DNA of 64,000 nucleotides, from positions 1 through 64,000 of the forward strand of contig CAMDNW010000010.1 of NCBI GenBank assembly GCA_945903275.1, given 5' to 3'. Below are positions 5,668 through 63,564 of this stretch, in pieces. The first letter of the stretch is position 1. Each line of letters begins with the position of its first letter. The notes under the pieces are model-generated. The model searched no databases. It was not told where the DNA came from and saw only the letters and a list, made by a program, of their open reading frames with translations. The position numbers were made by a program, and so were the translations under genes. The DNA comes from Thermoflexus hugenholtzii JAD2. GTDB taxonomy: Bacteria; Chloroflexota; Dehalococcoidia; UBA2979.

Positions 5668-5712
5668 GCTCCCTCCTCTCCTGACCTCAGGAGAGGGGCC
5701 GGTGGGTGAGGT
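5668..5712. repeat. GC-rich palindromic element, copy B
   Basis: CCTCTCCTGA / CCTCAGGAGAGG arms followed by GGTGGGTGAGG, just upstream of the next gene's ATG (5723). Same design as the other copies: hairpin plus a GGTGAG-like tail. Confidence 0.6.
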
Positions 5713-6472: not shown

Positions 6473-6479
6473 TCCCTCG

Positions 6480-6520
6480 CCTCTCACTCCCCCCTCTCCC
6501 CGAGAGGGGGGAGTGAGAGG
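6480..6520. terminator. Perfect 19-bp hairpin (element copy C)
   Basis: Arms 6480-6498 and 6502-6520 are perfectly complementary with a CCC loop, 8 bp after the stop of the TIM-barrel gene. The arm sequence matches the palindromic element family (CTCACTCCCCCCTCTC). It lacks a U-tract, so termination is plausible but not certain. Confidence 0.6.
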
Positions 6521-6629
6521 CTCACTTCACATAAAAACTCCTCGCTTGACCACCTCTCCTCCCCATACCTATCATTTAGATGCTTCGAAGCGACCATCCG
6601 CCCCCTCAAAGGACGGAAAGGCCACGCTC

Positions 6630-7488: not shown

Positions 7489-7791
7489 CTACAGGTGCAT
7501 TCCATCGGCTGTGACACGAAACTCAAGAGTGACGGGCGTCATGTCTACGTGATGAATTGTCATCGGGCCGTGATCGCTGGGGATCGATACCTGAATGTCA
7601 TCTGGCCCCACGTCTGTTACATCATTGAACTGAACGTGAAACATCTCCATCAACAAGAAACCACCGGGATTCATCGCTTGCACACCATGCCAACCGGAGT
7701 AGACCGCGAACGGTAGGAGGGGTGCACTCGGCGTTGAGGGGGGCGACGGATTCACGGTACGTAAAAAGGCTTCGACATCCTCAGCGGTCAC
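7489..7791 (-). CDS. Hypothetical protein starting inside a palindrome
   Basis: 100 residues from a GTG at 7791. The middle has a plausible globular composition (GFLLMEMFHVQFNDVTDVGP). No signal peptide, TM segment or known motif. Its start lies in the left arm of the 37-bp palindrome. Could be spurious; no homologue is recognised. Confidence 0.35.
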   Translation of the reverse strand: MTAEDVEAFLRTVNPSPPSTPSAPLLPFAVYSGWHGVQAMNPGGFLLMEMFHVQFNDVTDVGPDDIQVSIPSDHGPMTIHHVDMTPVTLEFRVTADGMHL

Positions 7792-7817
7792 CCCCCCCGG
7801 GGGGGGGTGACCGCTGA
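7781..7817. repeat. 37-bp palindrome with C8/G9 core
   Basis: TCAGCGGTCA, C8, G9, TGACCGCTGA: arms are fully complementary with essentially no loop. It could be a hairpin, a cruciform-forming site, or a join artefact. Both arms present GTGACCGCTGA, so an ORF start can be read in each direction. Confidence 0.95.
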
Positions 7818-8589: not shown

Positions 8590-8829
8590 ATGCTCAACCT
8601 CACCGGCATCACCCAACAACCCGTCGCACCGCTCACAGACGAACAAGTCGCCCGCCTCCAAACCATCCAAACCACCCCCGGCAAACCCGGCCTCTTCGTC
8701 ATCACCGGCATCGACGGCCAGACCACCGGCGACCACACCGGCAGCAACGCACAATTCATGGCCGCCGCCGCCGCCCTCCACCATTCCCCCTCACGCCCTC
8801 CTTCGCCCCCTTGGCGAAGGAGGGCGTGA
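8590..8829 (+). CDS. Small hypothetical protein, C-terminus made of repeat element
   Basis: 79 residues from ATG 8590. Residues 1-66 look like a normal small protein (TDEQVARLQTIQ helix, GLFVITGIDGQ strand). The last 13 residues and the stop come from the palindromic element copy D (8789-8831), so the original C-terminus was probably replaced by insertion. Function unknown. Confidence 0.5.
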   Translation: MLNLTGITQQPVAPLTDEQVARLQTIQTTPGKPGLFVITGIDGQTTGDHTGSNAQFMAAAAALHHSPSRPPSPPWRRRA

Positions 8830-8831
8830 GG
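8789..8831. repeat. GC-rich palindromic element, copy D
   Basis: A perfect 19-bp stem (8789-8807 with 8813-8831) and a 5-nt loop, ending in GCGTGAGG. It overlaps the 3' end of the preceding small ORF and lies about 60 bp before rpmH, so it might also terminate that ORF's transcript. Confidence 0.85.
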
Positions 8832-9438: not shown

Positions 9439-9816
9439 ATGAAATCTATCTCCATCGCCCTCATCCGCCTCTACCAACAAGCCATCTCCCCCCACCTCGG
9501 GCCTGTCTGCCGCTACCAGCCTTCCTGCTCCAACTACGCCATCGAGGCCATCAACCGCTTCGGTGCCCTGCGCGGCGGCTGGTTCGCCGCCAAACGGCTC
9601 TCCCGCTGTCACCCCTGGCACGCCGGCGGCTACGATCCGGTGCCCGAGGCCACTGAACACCCTTCCCCAGATCTAATCTCAACTAGCATCCGCATATACA
9701 ATTTGTTTCACGTGAAACAAATTGCTAAGGCTGACAGCAGTTACGAGGCCCAAAGGCGCCTCACGATCGCCGATTCCGCCCCGCAGACCTCCTCCCACCA
9801 CCCGATCGCCCGATGA
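9439..9816 (+). CDS. yidD: YidD membrane protein insertion efficiency factor, extended
   Basis: The core (residues 1-70) is typical of Yid[36 protein letters not shown] and GGYDPVP. It assists YidC-dependent insertion at the inner membrane. Family members usually end near here, but this frame runs 55 residues further, straight through the parS1 site (peptide [12 protein letters not shown]), and stops at TGA 9814-9816 overlapping the next ATG. The tail is probably functionless or affected by the parS duplication. Confidence 0.9.
9688..9743. repeat. Direct repeat 1 containing parS
   Basis: A 56-bp block matching 9888-9943 at about 51 positions, offset exactly 200 bp. It carries the 16-bp parS plus the downstream CAAATTGCTAAGGCTGA sequence. 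Confidence 0.9.
9704..9719. promoter_or_regulatory. parS site 1 (perfect)
   Basis: TGTTTCACGTGAAACA, identical to the conserved bacterial chromosomal parS palindrome bound by ParB. It lies inside the extended yidD frame, 4.2 kb from parB. Confidence 0.97.
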
Positions 9817-11108
9817 TCGAGACGAAAGGCGCCCCCCAACTGCCCTCCACATTCCCAAACCACCTGAACCAGCCCGTTTCAGATATCATTCGCTTATACA
9901 GATTGTTTCACGTGAAACAAATTGCTAAGGCTGAGAGCAGTTGTGCGCCGCGCCGAACCCACAGAGCCACCATCCTTCCGCTTGTACTGGGCGCATTCCT
10001 CCTCCTTGGTACCGCCTGCGCACCCGTCGAGGCTGCTGCGGGCTGGGGTGCCCCCATCGCCACCGGCGATCTCATACTCACCAGCAACAGTCAGGGCAAA
10101 GTCACCGCCCTCCGCACCGCTAACGACGCCCTGCCCGCCGTCGCCTGGACCTACCCACCTCCCAGCGAGTCCGAAAAGCCCTGGTACCAGCGCCTCTTCT
10201 CTGGCCGCAGTGACGAGGCCGCCCTCCAGACCATCTACGCCGCCCCGATCGTCGGGCGCGCCGGCCAACAGCAGCGCATCTATCTCGCGGGCTACTCCGG
10301 CGTCGTCTTGGCCATCGATCCCACCACCGGCCGCCGCATCGACGGCTGGCCCAGCGTGAACGCCGGGAGCCGCATCATCGCCACCCCCGCCTTCGCCGAT
10401 GGCCGCCTCTACATCGCCACCCAGGAAGGCACCGTCCGCAGCATCGATGCGGCCACTGGAGCACTCTCCCAGCCGTTCCTCAGCCTCGGCACCCGCATCT
10501 GGTCCGCCCCGGTCATCGACCGAGGCACTCTCTACATCGCCGCCTTCGATCACCACGTCCGCGCCCTCGATCCCCTCACCGGCGCGGTTCGCTGGCAGCA
10601 GGACATCGGCGGCGCGGTCGCCGGTGACCTCGCCTTTACAGGCGATCTGATGCTCGTGCCCACCCTCCAGAGCCGCCTCGTCGCCCTCGACACCACCGCC
10701 CGCGGCGCCGAACGCTGGGCCTTCACTGGCGACAACTGGTTCTGGGCGCGCCCACTCGTCTCCGGTGACACCGTCTTCGCCGTCTCCTCCGTCGGCACCG
10801 TCTACGCGCTCGATGTTGCCACCGGCCGCGAGCGCTGGAACACCCCTGTCAAAGCGGGCGAGGTACACGCAGCCCCGGTCATCGTCGGCGGTACGCTTGT
10901 CGTCGCCACCCGCAACGGCGTCCTTGCCGGACTCGACCCCACCACCGGCGCCGAACGCTGGCGCAAGACGGTCGAAGATGCCCGCTTCCTCGCCAACCCG
11001 CTGGTGGTAGAATCAGCCATCCTATACGTCGCTGAGAATGGTGACGTGCATCGTGTTCGCCCTCAGGATAAGGGCACTACAGAACGTATGTTCTCACCTG
11101 ACAACTAA
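9813..11108 (+). CDS. PQQ-like beta-propeller lipoprotein (BamB-like)
   Basis: A secreted propeller: repeated blade motifs with GxxxALDxxTGxxRW ([37 protein letters not shown]) through about residues 100-420. A lipoprotein signal with lipobox LGTAC is at about residues 67-71. ATG 9813 overlaps the yidD stop (ATGA) but leaves a long segment before the signal. GTG 9912, inside parS2, would give a normal signal peptide beginning MKQIAKAE. The place between yidD and yidC suggests a helper in envelope protein insertion, by analogy with BamB; this is inference. Confidence 0.8.
9888..9943. repeat. Direct repeat 2 containing parS
   Basis: Second copy of the 56-bp block (five mismatches to 9688-9743), lying in the 5' region of the propeller gene. 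Confidence 0.9.
9904..9919. promoter_or_regulatory. parS site 2 (perfect)
   Basis: A second exact TGTTTCACGTGAAACA, 200 bp after the first. A GTG candidate start of the propeller gene (9912) lies at its centre, so ParB binding may affect its translation or transcription start region. Confidence 0.97.
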
Positions 11109-31773: not shown

Positions 31774-31816
31774 CTCCTACTCCCCGCTCCCTCTGGGGAG
31801 AGGGGCCGGGAGTGAG
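31774..31816. repeat. GC-rich palindromic element, copy E
   Basis: CTCCTACTCCCCGCTCCC / GGGAGAGGGGCCGGGAGTGAG, an imperfect hairpin filling the gap between the stop of the PP2C-fusion gene and the start of the GNAT gene. It may terminate the former. Confidence 0.7.
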
Positions 31817-31817
31817 T

Positions 31818-46428: not shown

Positions 46429-46827
46429 GTGGCCAACACTAACACCCGCCTCATCTACTCCACCGACGGCACCACCGCCGGCCGCCTCGTTGCAAAAGGC
46501 GGGCCCATGCCCGCCGCCCGTTCGACATCACCCTCTCCCGCCCCCGGGAGAGCGGGCCTCGGGGTGAGTTCCGCGCCCCCTTTCAACGACGGCATAGTGA
46601 GAATCCAGCGCACCAGCAAGGGCCGCAGGGGTAAAACCGTCACCACCATCACCGGCCTCCCCGGCTCGGCGACCGACCTCGGCAACCTGCTCAAAGTACT
46701 CAAGCAACACTGCGGCGCCGGCGGCACCCGCGACACATCCGCCCTCGAAATTCAAGGTGACCACCGTGACCGCATTGTCGCGTGGCTCGAAGCAAACGGG
46801 CATAACGTAAAGATCGTGGGCGGTTAG
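46429..46827 (+). CDS. SUI1/eIF1-like translation factor (YciH) with inserted element
   Basis: 132 residues from GTG 46429. The C-terminal 80 residues are a full SUI1 domain: RTSKGRRGKTVTTITGLPGS, LGNLLKVLKQHCGAGG, LEIQGDHRDRIVAWLEANGH. The N-terminal STDGTTAGRL is typical of YciH. Between them residues about 32-50 (STSPSPAPGRAGLGVSS) are encoded by palindromic element copy G, in frame, and replace or extend the usual short linker. Bacterial SUI1 proteins are thought to act on initiation fidelity. Confidence 0.9.
   Translation: MANTNTRLIYSTDGTTAGRLVAKGGPMPAARSTSPSPAPGRAGLGVSSAPPFNDGIVRIQRTSKGRRGKTVTTITGLPGSATDLGNLLKVLKQHCGAGGTRDTSALEIQGDHRDRIVAWLEANGHNVKIVGG
46528..46567. repeat. GC-rich palindromic element, copy G, inside SUI1 gene
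   Basis: TCACCCTCTCCCG ... CGGGAGAG ... GGGTGA, with an 8-bp inner and 6-bp outer stem, lies in frame in the SUI1 gene linker. It encodes SPSPAPGRAGLGVS. Confidence 0.8.
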
Positions 46828-46897: not shown

Positions 46898-47158
46898 CTA
46901 CGCCAGAGACTGGTGCAATCGGGTCGCCGCATCCGCATTGGCGGGCCAGGCGCGCGCGAGTTGAGCGGCTAGCGCCTCCACCAGCACCGGCGCAGCCGCA
47001 CGTGCCGAGACTCGCGACGCCAACTTCTTCGTTGCGGCCTTCTTCGTTGCAGCCTTCTTCGTTGCGGGTTTCGCGGCAGCAGTGCGCCGGACTGCCAACT
47101 TCTTCGTTGCAGCCTTCTTCGTTGCGGGTTTCGCGGCAGCAGTACGCGTTGTCGCCAT
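46898..47158 (-). CDS. Histone H1-like AAKK-repeat protein
   Basis: 86 residues. The N-terminal 48 are two near-identical blocks of TAAAKPATKKAATKK, strongly basic and like eukaryotic H1 C-termini and bacterial AlgP/HctB/Lsr2-tail proteins. The C-terminal 35 form an Ala-rich amphipathic helix (APVLVEALAAQLARAW). Likely a nucleoid or RNA-binding protein; inference from composition. The DNA itself is a tandem repeat, and length may vary between strains. ATG 47158 has GTGAGGATCC upstream. Confidence 0.75.
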   Translation of the reverse strand: MATTRTAAAKPATKKAATKKLAVRRTAAAKPATKKAATKKAATKKLASRVSARAAAPVLVEALAAQLARAWPANADAATRLHQSLA

Positions 47159-58758: not shown

Positions 58759-58783
58759 GAGATACTCCCCAACAATGCTTTCC

Positions 58784-58825
58784 TGCCCCTCTCCCGCTCG
58801 CGGGAGAGGGGCAGTGGTGAGGGCT
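58784..58825. repeat. GC-rich palindromic element, copy J
   Basis: Perfect 13-bp stem TGCCCCTCTCCCG / CGGGAGAGGGGCA with CTCG loop, then GTGGTGAGGG. It lies between the thiolase-like pair 2 gene and the truncated phosphoesterase, and probably ends the upstream transcript. Confidence 0.9.
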
Positions 58826-62135: not shown

Positions 62136-62204
62136 CTATTCACCTCTCCCGTCCTAGGGAGAGGTGCCTTCCGGCCGCAGGCCTAGGAAACGCAGGGTGA
62201 GGTA
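62136..62204. repeat. GC-rich element, copy L, holding rimO start
   Basis: ACCTCTCCCGTCCTAGGGAGAGGT hairpin, GCCTTCCGGCCGCAGGCC hairpin, then GCAGGGTGAGGTAC. Its terminal GGGTGAGG contains GTG 62197, the best rimO start, as the family tail. Confidence 0.8.
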
Positions 62205-63564
62205 CCACCTCACCACCCTCGGCTGCGCCAAAAACACCGTCGACTCCATCCGCTTGGAGCGCACCCTCCGCAACCTCCGCCACACCCCCGTCACCACCCC
62301 AGACCTCGCTGATCTCATCCTCGTCAACACCTGCGGCTTCATAGACGCCGCCAAAGACGAATCCATCCAAACCGTCAAAACCCTCGAAAGCGCCCGCCGC
62401 CCCAACCAACAGCTCTACGTCATCGGCTGCATGACTCAGATCGCCGCAACCGAAGTCCGCACCGCCGTCCCCAACATCACCGCCACCTACGGCGCCGAAG
62501 CCTGGGAGCAAATCGCCGCCGACCTCGGCCCCGCCTCCGACACCTACGACATCCCCCAACCTTCCCCCTCCCCCCTCGAGGGGGAAGGTTGGGGTGAGAG
62601 GTCTTCGAGCGCCTACCTCAAAATCTCAGACGGCTGCGACCGTCCCTGCACCTTCTGCATCATCCCCACCATCAAAGGCCGCATGCACTCCGACACCACA
62701 GAACGCCTCATCAACGAAGCCCGCTGGCTCGCCGCCTCCGGCGTCAAAGAACTCGTCCTCGTCGCCCAAGACTCCACCGCCTACGGCGAAGATGCCGGCC
62801 AACGAGATGGCCTCGCCACCTTCCTCGAACGCCTCTCGGAAGCCGTCCCGCACGTACCTTGGATCCGCCTCATGTACGCCTACCCCGGCCGCGTCACCCC
62901 CCGCCTCGCCCATGCCATGGCCGCCCTCCCCAACATCGTCCCCTACATGGACATGCCCCTCCAGCATGGCTCCGACGCCGTCCTCCACCGCATGAAGCGT
63001 CCCAGCCTCCGCGTCGCCCGCCAGTCCATCCAGCACGTCCGGGACGCCATGCCGGACATCGCCCTCCGCACCACCTTCATCGTCGGCTACCCCGGCGAAA
63101 CCGAACGCGAATTCCAGGAACTCCTGGACTTCGTCCAGGAACAACGCTTCCACCACATCGGCGCCTTCACCTACTCCCCTCAACCCGGCACCCCAGCCGC
63201 CCAACTCCCCCAACTGACCGAAAAAACCAAACAGCGCCGCTACGCCCGCCTCATGGAACTCGCCCAAGCCATCTCCCTCGAACATAACCGCGCACTCGTC
63301 GGCCAAGAACTCGACGTCCTCATCGAATCCGAAACCCCCACTCAGGGCGAACACGGCACCGGCGCCGTCTCCGTCGGCCGCACCCACCGTGACGCCCCCG
63401 AGGTAGACGGCCTCGCCCTCGTCAAGGGCGAATACCCGGCCGGAACCATGATCCGCGTCCGCGTCGACGGCGCCCTCCACTACGACCTCCTCTGCACCCC
63501 CGTCGGTATCTCCTCCGTCCCACAGGCCCTCGCCATCCCCCTCCACCCCATAACACGACCCTAA
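62197..63564 (+). CDS. rimO: Ribosomal protein S12 methylthiotransferase
   Basis: 455 residues from GTG 62197 (MRYHLTTLGCAKNTVDS); GTG 62164 is possible but wholly inside an inserted repeat. N-terminal MTTase domain with Cys in LGCAKN, NTCGFID and IGCMTQ; radical-SAM cluster CDRPCTFC; partner PMDMPLQHGSDAVL; C-terminal TRAM. It methylthiolates Asp88 of S12. Between MTTase and radical-SAM domains, residues about 120-136 (PSPSPLEGEGWGERSS) come from element copy M, in frame. SD-like AGG lies just before the GTG. Confidence 0.96.
   Translation: MRYHLTTLGCAKNTVDSIRLERTLRNLRHTPVTTPDLADLILVNTCGFIDAAKDESIQTVKTLESARRPNQQLYVIGCMTQIAATEVRTAVPNITATYGAEAWEQIAADLGPASDTYDIPQPSPSPLEGEGWGERSSSAYLKISDGCDRPCTFCIIPTIKGRMHSDTTERLINEARWLAASGVKELVLVAQDSTAYGEDAGQRDGLATFLERLSEAVPHVPWIRLMYAYPGRVTPRLAHAMAALPNIVPYMDMPLQHGSDAVLHRMKRPSLRVARQSIQHVRDAMPDIALRTTFIVGYPGETEREFQELLDFVQEQRFHHIGAFTYSPQPGTPAAQLPQLTEKTKQRRYARLMELAQAISLEHNRALVGQELDVLIESETPTQGEHGTGAVSVGRTHRDAPEVDGLALVKGEYPAGTMIRVRVDGALHYDLLCTPVGISSVPQALAIPLHPITRP
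62553..62602. repeat. GC-rich palindromic element, copy M, inside rimO
   Basis: Perfect 17-bp stem (62554-62570 with 62578-62594), 7-nt loop, then TGAGAGG. It is in frame within rimO, in the linker between the MTTase and radical-SAM domains. Confidence 0.95.

Follow-up and report, generated by a model that had tools for sequence, protein, structure and literature searches.

The G/C-rich intrastrand-triplex motif TM, represented in E. coli by TM_ECO, is a hairpin followed by a purine third strand able to fold back on it as a class II triplex, for which in vitro CD and NMR evidence has been presented (Holder et al. 2015, PMC4666352). The motif is defined by a pyrimidine arm, a purine arm and a purine third strand, with at least 7 triads, no more than one mismatch and loops of 1–6 nt, and an example copy from E. 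coli reads CCCTCTCCCTGTGGGAGAGGGCCGGGGTGAGGGC. The same work cites Hoyne and Maher for earlier elements of the intrastrand-triplex kind, and its main text does not mention the phylum Chloroflexi. A query around the published E. coli copy matched 3820 of 5426 E. coli genomes, a count that is indicative only given the approximate flanks of the query, and no annotated feature lay under the match in the ten records listed. The intragenic REPs of the GTAG and CGTC families are a second point of comparison; they have tRNA synthetases and DNA repair genes among their hosts, and a Y1 transposase (RAYT) is expected with the GTAG REPs, none reportedly accompanying the CGTC REPs (Di Nocera et al. 2013, PMC3733652).

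Here we describe a related palindrome inside a SUI1/YciH-type gene of a Dehalococcoidia (Chloroflexota) MAG of 1.75 Mb, 97% complete. The window analysed comprises bases 1–64,000 of its contig C10. A foreign origin of this contig was rejected, as the tetranucleotide profiles of the window fall within the spread of the other contigs and the sequences nearest to its RimO are those of the same genus. The host gene (46429–46827, + strand) has a GTG start and encodes 132 aa, with the Pfam SUI1 domain at residues 55–124 (63.4 bits); NCBIfam YciH/Sui1 models hit residues 47–132 with scores below their cut-offs, and the nearest named relatives based on SUI1 are mostly Dehalococcoidia MAGs. As the first-pass annotation had reported, a palindrome is present in frame between the N-terminus and the SUI1 domain, with TCACCCTCTCCCGCCCCCGGGAGAGCGGGCCTCGGGGTGA occupying exactly 46528–46567. 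It spans about 40 bases and is composed of CTCTCCCG-CCCC-CGGGAGAG followed by GGGGTGAG, with the CCCC loop placed between a pyrimidine-rich left arm (46533–46540) and a purine-rich right arm (46545–46552). The tail (46561–46568), which in intact copies is the third-strand segment, is read G GTG AG. The reported sequence gives the peptide SPSPAPGRAGLGV, and the element encodes TSPSPAPGRAGLGVSS, flanked by the conserved N-terminal motif RLIYSTDG and by the SUI1 domain. Relatives align on both sides of the element, so that a mis-called start is ruled out as the reason for its in-gene position. Downstream of the SUI1 gene, a small ORF on the opposite strand carries a Lys/Ala-rich coding repeat (KPATKKAATKK) of 15-nt units (47024–47147).

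A literature search with the string CCCCTCTCCC returned unrelated papers only, and the TM paper was reached through GGTGAGGG and the word 'palindromic'. The family plan is CCCTCTCCC-loop-GGGAGAGGG-CCG/TTA-GGGGTGAGGG, typical copies in relatives being ACTCCCCTCTCC-YGC-loop-GCR-GGAGAGGGGCCGGGGGTGAGG. Judged from its sequence, the family looks like TM/TM_ECO (PMC4666352), with which it shares the order and letters of the pyrimidine arm, loop, purine arm, CCG/TTA spacer and third strand, as well as the occurrence of many copies, on either strand, without a known mobiliser. The likeness is close for the intact copies of the present genome and its relatives, which reach 8–10 triads without mismatch in a simple triplex-scoring script (10/10 in good ones). 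In contrast, the SUI1 copy has just 6/8 triads, two mismatches and long loops of 8 and 7 nt by the same script, and lies inside a gene, whereas in E. coli K-12 the copies are always intergenic. It retains similarity to the whole motif, though weakly, and since it is decayed in this way (6/8 against 10/10 triads) it would be better termed a TM derivative than a full member.

The same gradation is seen with a covariance model (R1) of 42 positions, built from equal-length copies of three other genomes only. Searched over the whole genome, it yielded 14 hits with an E-value of 0.01 or lower, which fall on 13 sites. The window holds strong intergenic copies on the + strand at 5670–5711 (37.8 bits, E 3e-8), 31779–31817 (36.1 bits) and 58782–58822 (33.1 bits, 8/8 triads), with E-values from 3e-8 to 6e-7, and also a partial copy just upstream of rimO (62141–62168, + strand, 16.5 bits), for which no triplex tail was found. 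The SUI1 copy (46528–46569, + strand; stem, spacer and tail) scored 16.3 bits, with E 0.031 for the window and 0.84 for the genome, and so appears by model score to be a weak member of the family; the match nevertheless spans the entire model. This weak score, together with the reduced number of triads relative to intact copies, fits decay of the SUI1 copy. As for chance, the strict form of stem and tail (CTCTCC, up to 16 nt, GGAGAG, 2–15 nt, GGTGAG) was counted three times in the window, the SUI1 copy included, against once in 300 dinucleotide-preserving shuffles. Of 2000 trials with codon-shuffled SUI1 genes, 7 produced an 8-bp stem in the linker.

Across 99 relatives, CCTCTCC..GGAGAGG palindromes number from 0 to 142 per genome, with 8 in the present one, and in copy-rich genomes they far exceed the reversed-pattern control. 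In stretches sampled around copies in three copy-rich relatives, all 77 of 77 copies lay outside called genes, a count that is approximate because genes were called by a simple codon-usage script; the coding share of the sampled sequence was 79% and 85% in two of the three. As these copies are intergenic, like those of E. coli, a copy within a gene is an oddity for a TM-type repeat. The present genome has ten CTCTCC..GGAGAG palindromes, four of them clustered on the 67-kb contig of the window and three on a 36-kb contig, C18. In one relative (G007), many TM-type palindromes are located no more than about 170 nt from a contig end (contigs C6, C8, C11, C17, C23, C27 and C36), and a TM-like copy is found at 72–111 of the window, at the start of its own contig; assembly breaks may be due to the repeat or to its structure. 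The window also contains near-perfect long hairpins outside the TM consensus, with arms of 18–20 bp (6479–6521, 7781–7817 and 8789–8831), two of which end in CTCAC/GTGAG, and two parS-like sites (TGTTTCACGTGAAACA), carried by 64-nt repeats of 88% identity (9679–9742 and 9879–9942) near ParA/ParB-type and YidC-type ORFs.

Within the 464 kb of the present genome that were sampled, the SUI1 copy is the only strict-form copy called in-gene, and the model and the window added weaker ones in rimO, pheT and recG. The conserved part of rimO (62191–63564 of ORF 62164–63564, + strand; TIGR01125, 408.7 bits) holds a variant palindrome with 17-bp arms (CCCCAACCTTCCCCCTC) and a 7-nt loop (62554–62594), which with its GGGGTGAG-type tail extends over 62554–62600 on the + strand (19.1 bits, E 0.005 for the window). 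The pheT insert (contig C12, position 6117; E 0.003) is in the opposite orientation, and its aligned region measures 67 aa compared to 42–57 in relatives. The recG insert (contig C3, position 125005; E 0.33) lies in a region of 74 aa, against mostly 62–66 in relatives, three of which reach 70–74 with unrelated sequence. Two further loci, L212 (upstream of pheS) and L217, are intragenic by ORF but precede the likely true start, and were left out of the in-gene count. The divergent neighbour of pheT is pheS (loci L219 and L212, at 6117 and 7710 of C12), and a stronger TM copy is situated between the two.

The first-pass annotation was right that a real repeat family is found in frame in both SUI1 and rimO, in linkers between conserved regions. 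It had also held that the element is read there in the same phase, which a codon listing of the four in-gene copies contradicts: the tail is read GGG GTG AGT in SUI1, TGG GGT GAG in rimO and GGG GGT GAC in recG, and is reversed in pheT, so that only rimO and recG (2/4) have a phase in common, and the same-phase rule was rejected. The argument that two translation-related hosts in the same phase are unlikely by chance thereby loses its premise; moreover, five of the six frames of a typical element are free of stops, which makes two in-frame hosts unsurprising and would give little meaning even to one shared phase. The likeness of the SPSP..G.G peptides results from the C-rich arm being read first and then the G-rich arm.

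How did the SUI1 copy arise? We consider it probable that it is an eroded copy of a TM/TM_ECO-type repeat, inserted in frame in a flexible linker and roughly neutral. The repeat would have inserted into the unstructured linker that joins the N-terminal motif to the SUI1 domain, where about 13 added Pro/Ser/Gly-rich residues would do little harm and so could be tolerated, while selection would have purged any copy that was out of frame or lay in a folded region; the SUI1 copy would now drift as coding sequence, most of its predicted triplex-forming ability being lost. The family would also spread independently of a resident Y1 transposase. In agreement with this proposal, the linker is predicted to be floppy (AF2 pLDDT about 50 for the first 50 residues, compared to about 90 for the SUI1 domain), and at 39 aa it is the longest among 16 homologues, those of the 15 relatives measuring 24–35 aa. 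Further support comes from the stem and tail being far above shuffles and having the same plan as the relatives' copies and TM_ECO, from the similar in-frame inserts in pheT and recG, and from the known tolerance of REP palindromes in flexible gene regions. In the comparison of homologues that the first-pass annotation had suggested, the palindrome is absent from the aligned linkers of all 15 relatives, none of which is of the same genus. The SUI1 gene was not found in two same-genus genomes (76% and 67% complete), and a true empty site is therefore not available.

The main alternative is that there was no insertion, and that chance or convergence created the palindrome and its tail in place, in a fast-evolving Pro/Ser/Gly-rich linker of a C/G-rich genome. 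The SUI1 linkers of the relatives are indeed all variable and Pro/Ser/Arg-rich, synonymous recoding of SUI1 yields linker stems of at least 8 bp in 55 of 2000 trials, and further findings count against insertion, namely a linker excess over the longest relative of only 4 aa, the genome-wide E-value of the SUI1 copy, and the rimO linkers of both same-genus genomes, which are equal in length and have no palindrome. The latter is one half of what the first-pass annotation had said would speak against its view, and it means that insertion is not evident in rimO, where replacement or in-place change is possible. However, a properly spaced stem with its tail is rare in shuffled windows, the SUI1 linker is the longest of the set, and the match covers the model from end to end; we regard an origin in place as rather unlikely.

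We regard it as very improbable that the element is kept because it serves the host genes, for instance as a signal in translation or DNA structure common to translation-related genes. In its favour, three of the four in-gene hosts (SUI1, rimO and pheT) are translational, but the set is small (n = 4), and SUI1 and rimO were hand-picked, having been taken from the first-pass annotation; of the two further hosts, pheT is translational and recG is a DNA repair gene. The in-gene copies differ in phase and orientation, the element is absent from homologues, the sampled copies in relatives are intergenic, and the triplex ability predicted for intact copies is lost in SUI1. Folding of the mRNA around the element is unremarkable (z −1.23) and does not point to a regulatory role, and mRNA structure was rejected as its function. 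Phases, mRNA folding, homologues and copy locations thus yielded no evidence of a translation role.

Equally improbable is a REP/RPE-type element mobilised by a RAYT (Y1) transposase, which would account for a small palindrome with a one-sided tag lying in frame in genes, but is contradicted by the tag, GGTGAG rather than GTAG or CGTC, by the absence of Y1_Tnp (PF01797) from the present genome and from each of the family's ten copy-rich genomes, and by the lack of significant association over 99 genomes (Fisher p 0.20); REP/RAYT membership was rejected on this basis. The resemblance of the SUI1 element to intragenic REPs (PMC3733652) and Rickettsia palindromic elements is rather one of habit, since these too are small palindromes located in frame in housekeeping genes, where flexible regions tolerate them. 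It differs from them in its end tag and third-strand tail, in having no RAYT, and in the very few in-gene copies of its family.

Taken beyond SUI1, the insertion reading would have TM-type repeats, elsewhere strictly intergenic, entering SUI1, rimO, pheT and recG in varied phases and orientations and becoming linker by an RPE-like route without a resident Y1 transposase; this wider proposal is a possibility that we put forward tentatively and with some doubt. The translation reading of the SUI1 element finds no support. Should the in-gene copies be true insertions, this repeat, which according to the published description is always intergenic in E. coli, would be able to move into genes and persist there as tolerated protein linker. 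In addition, copies of the family number anywhere from 0 to over 100 in related genomes without a detected Y1 transposase, and the copy-rich sister species could make its multiplication testable.
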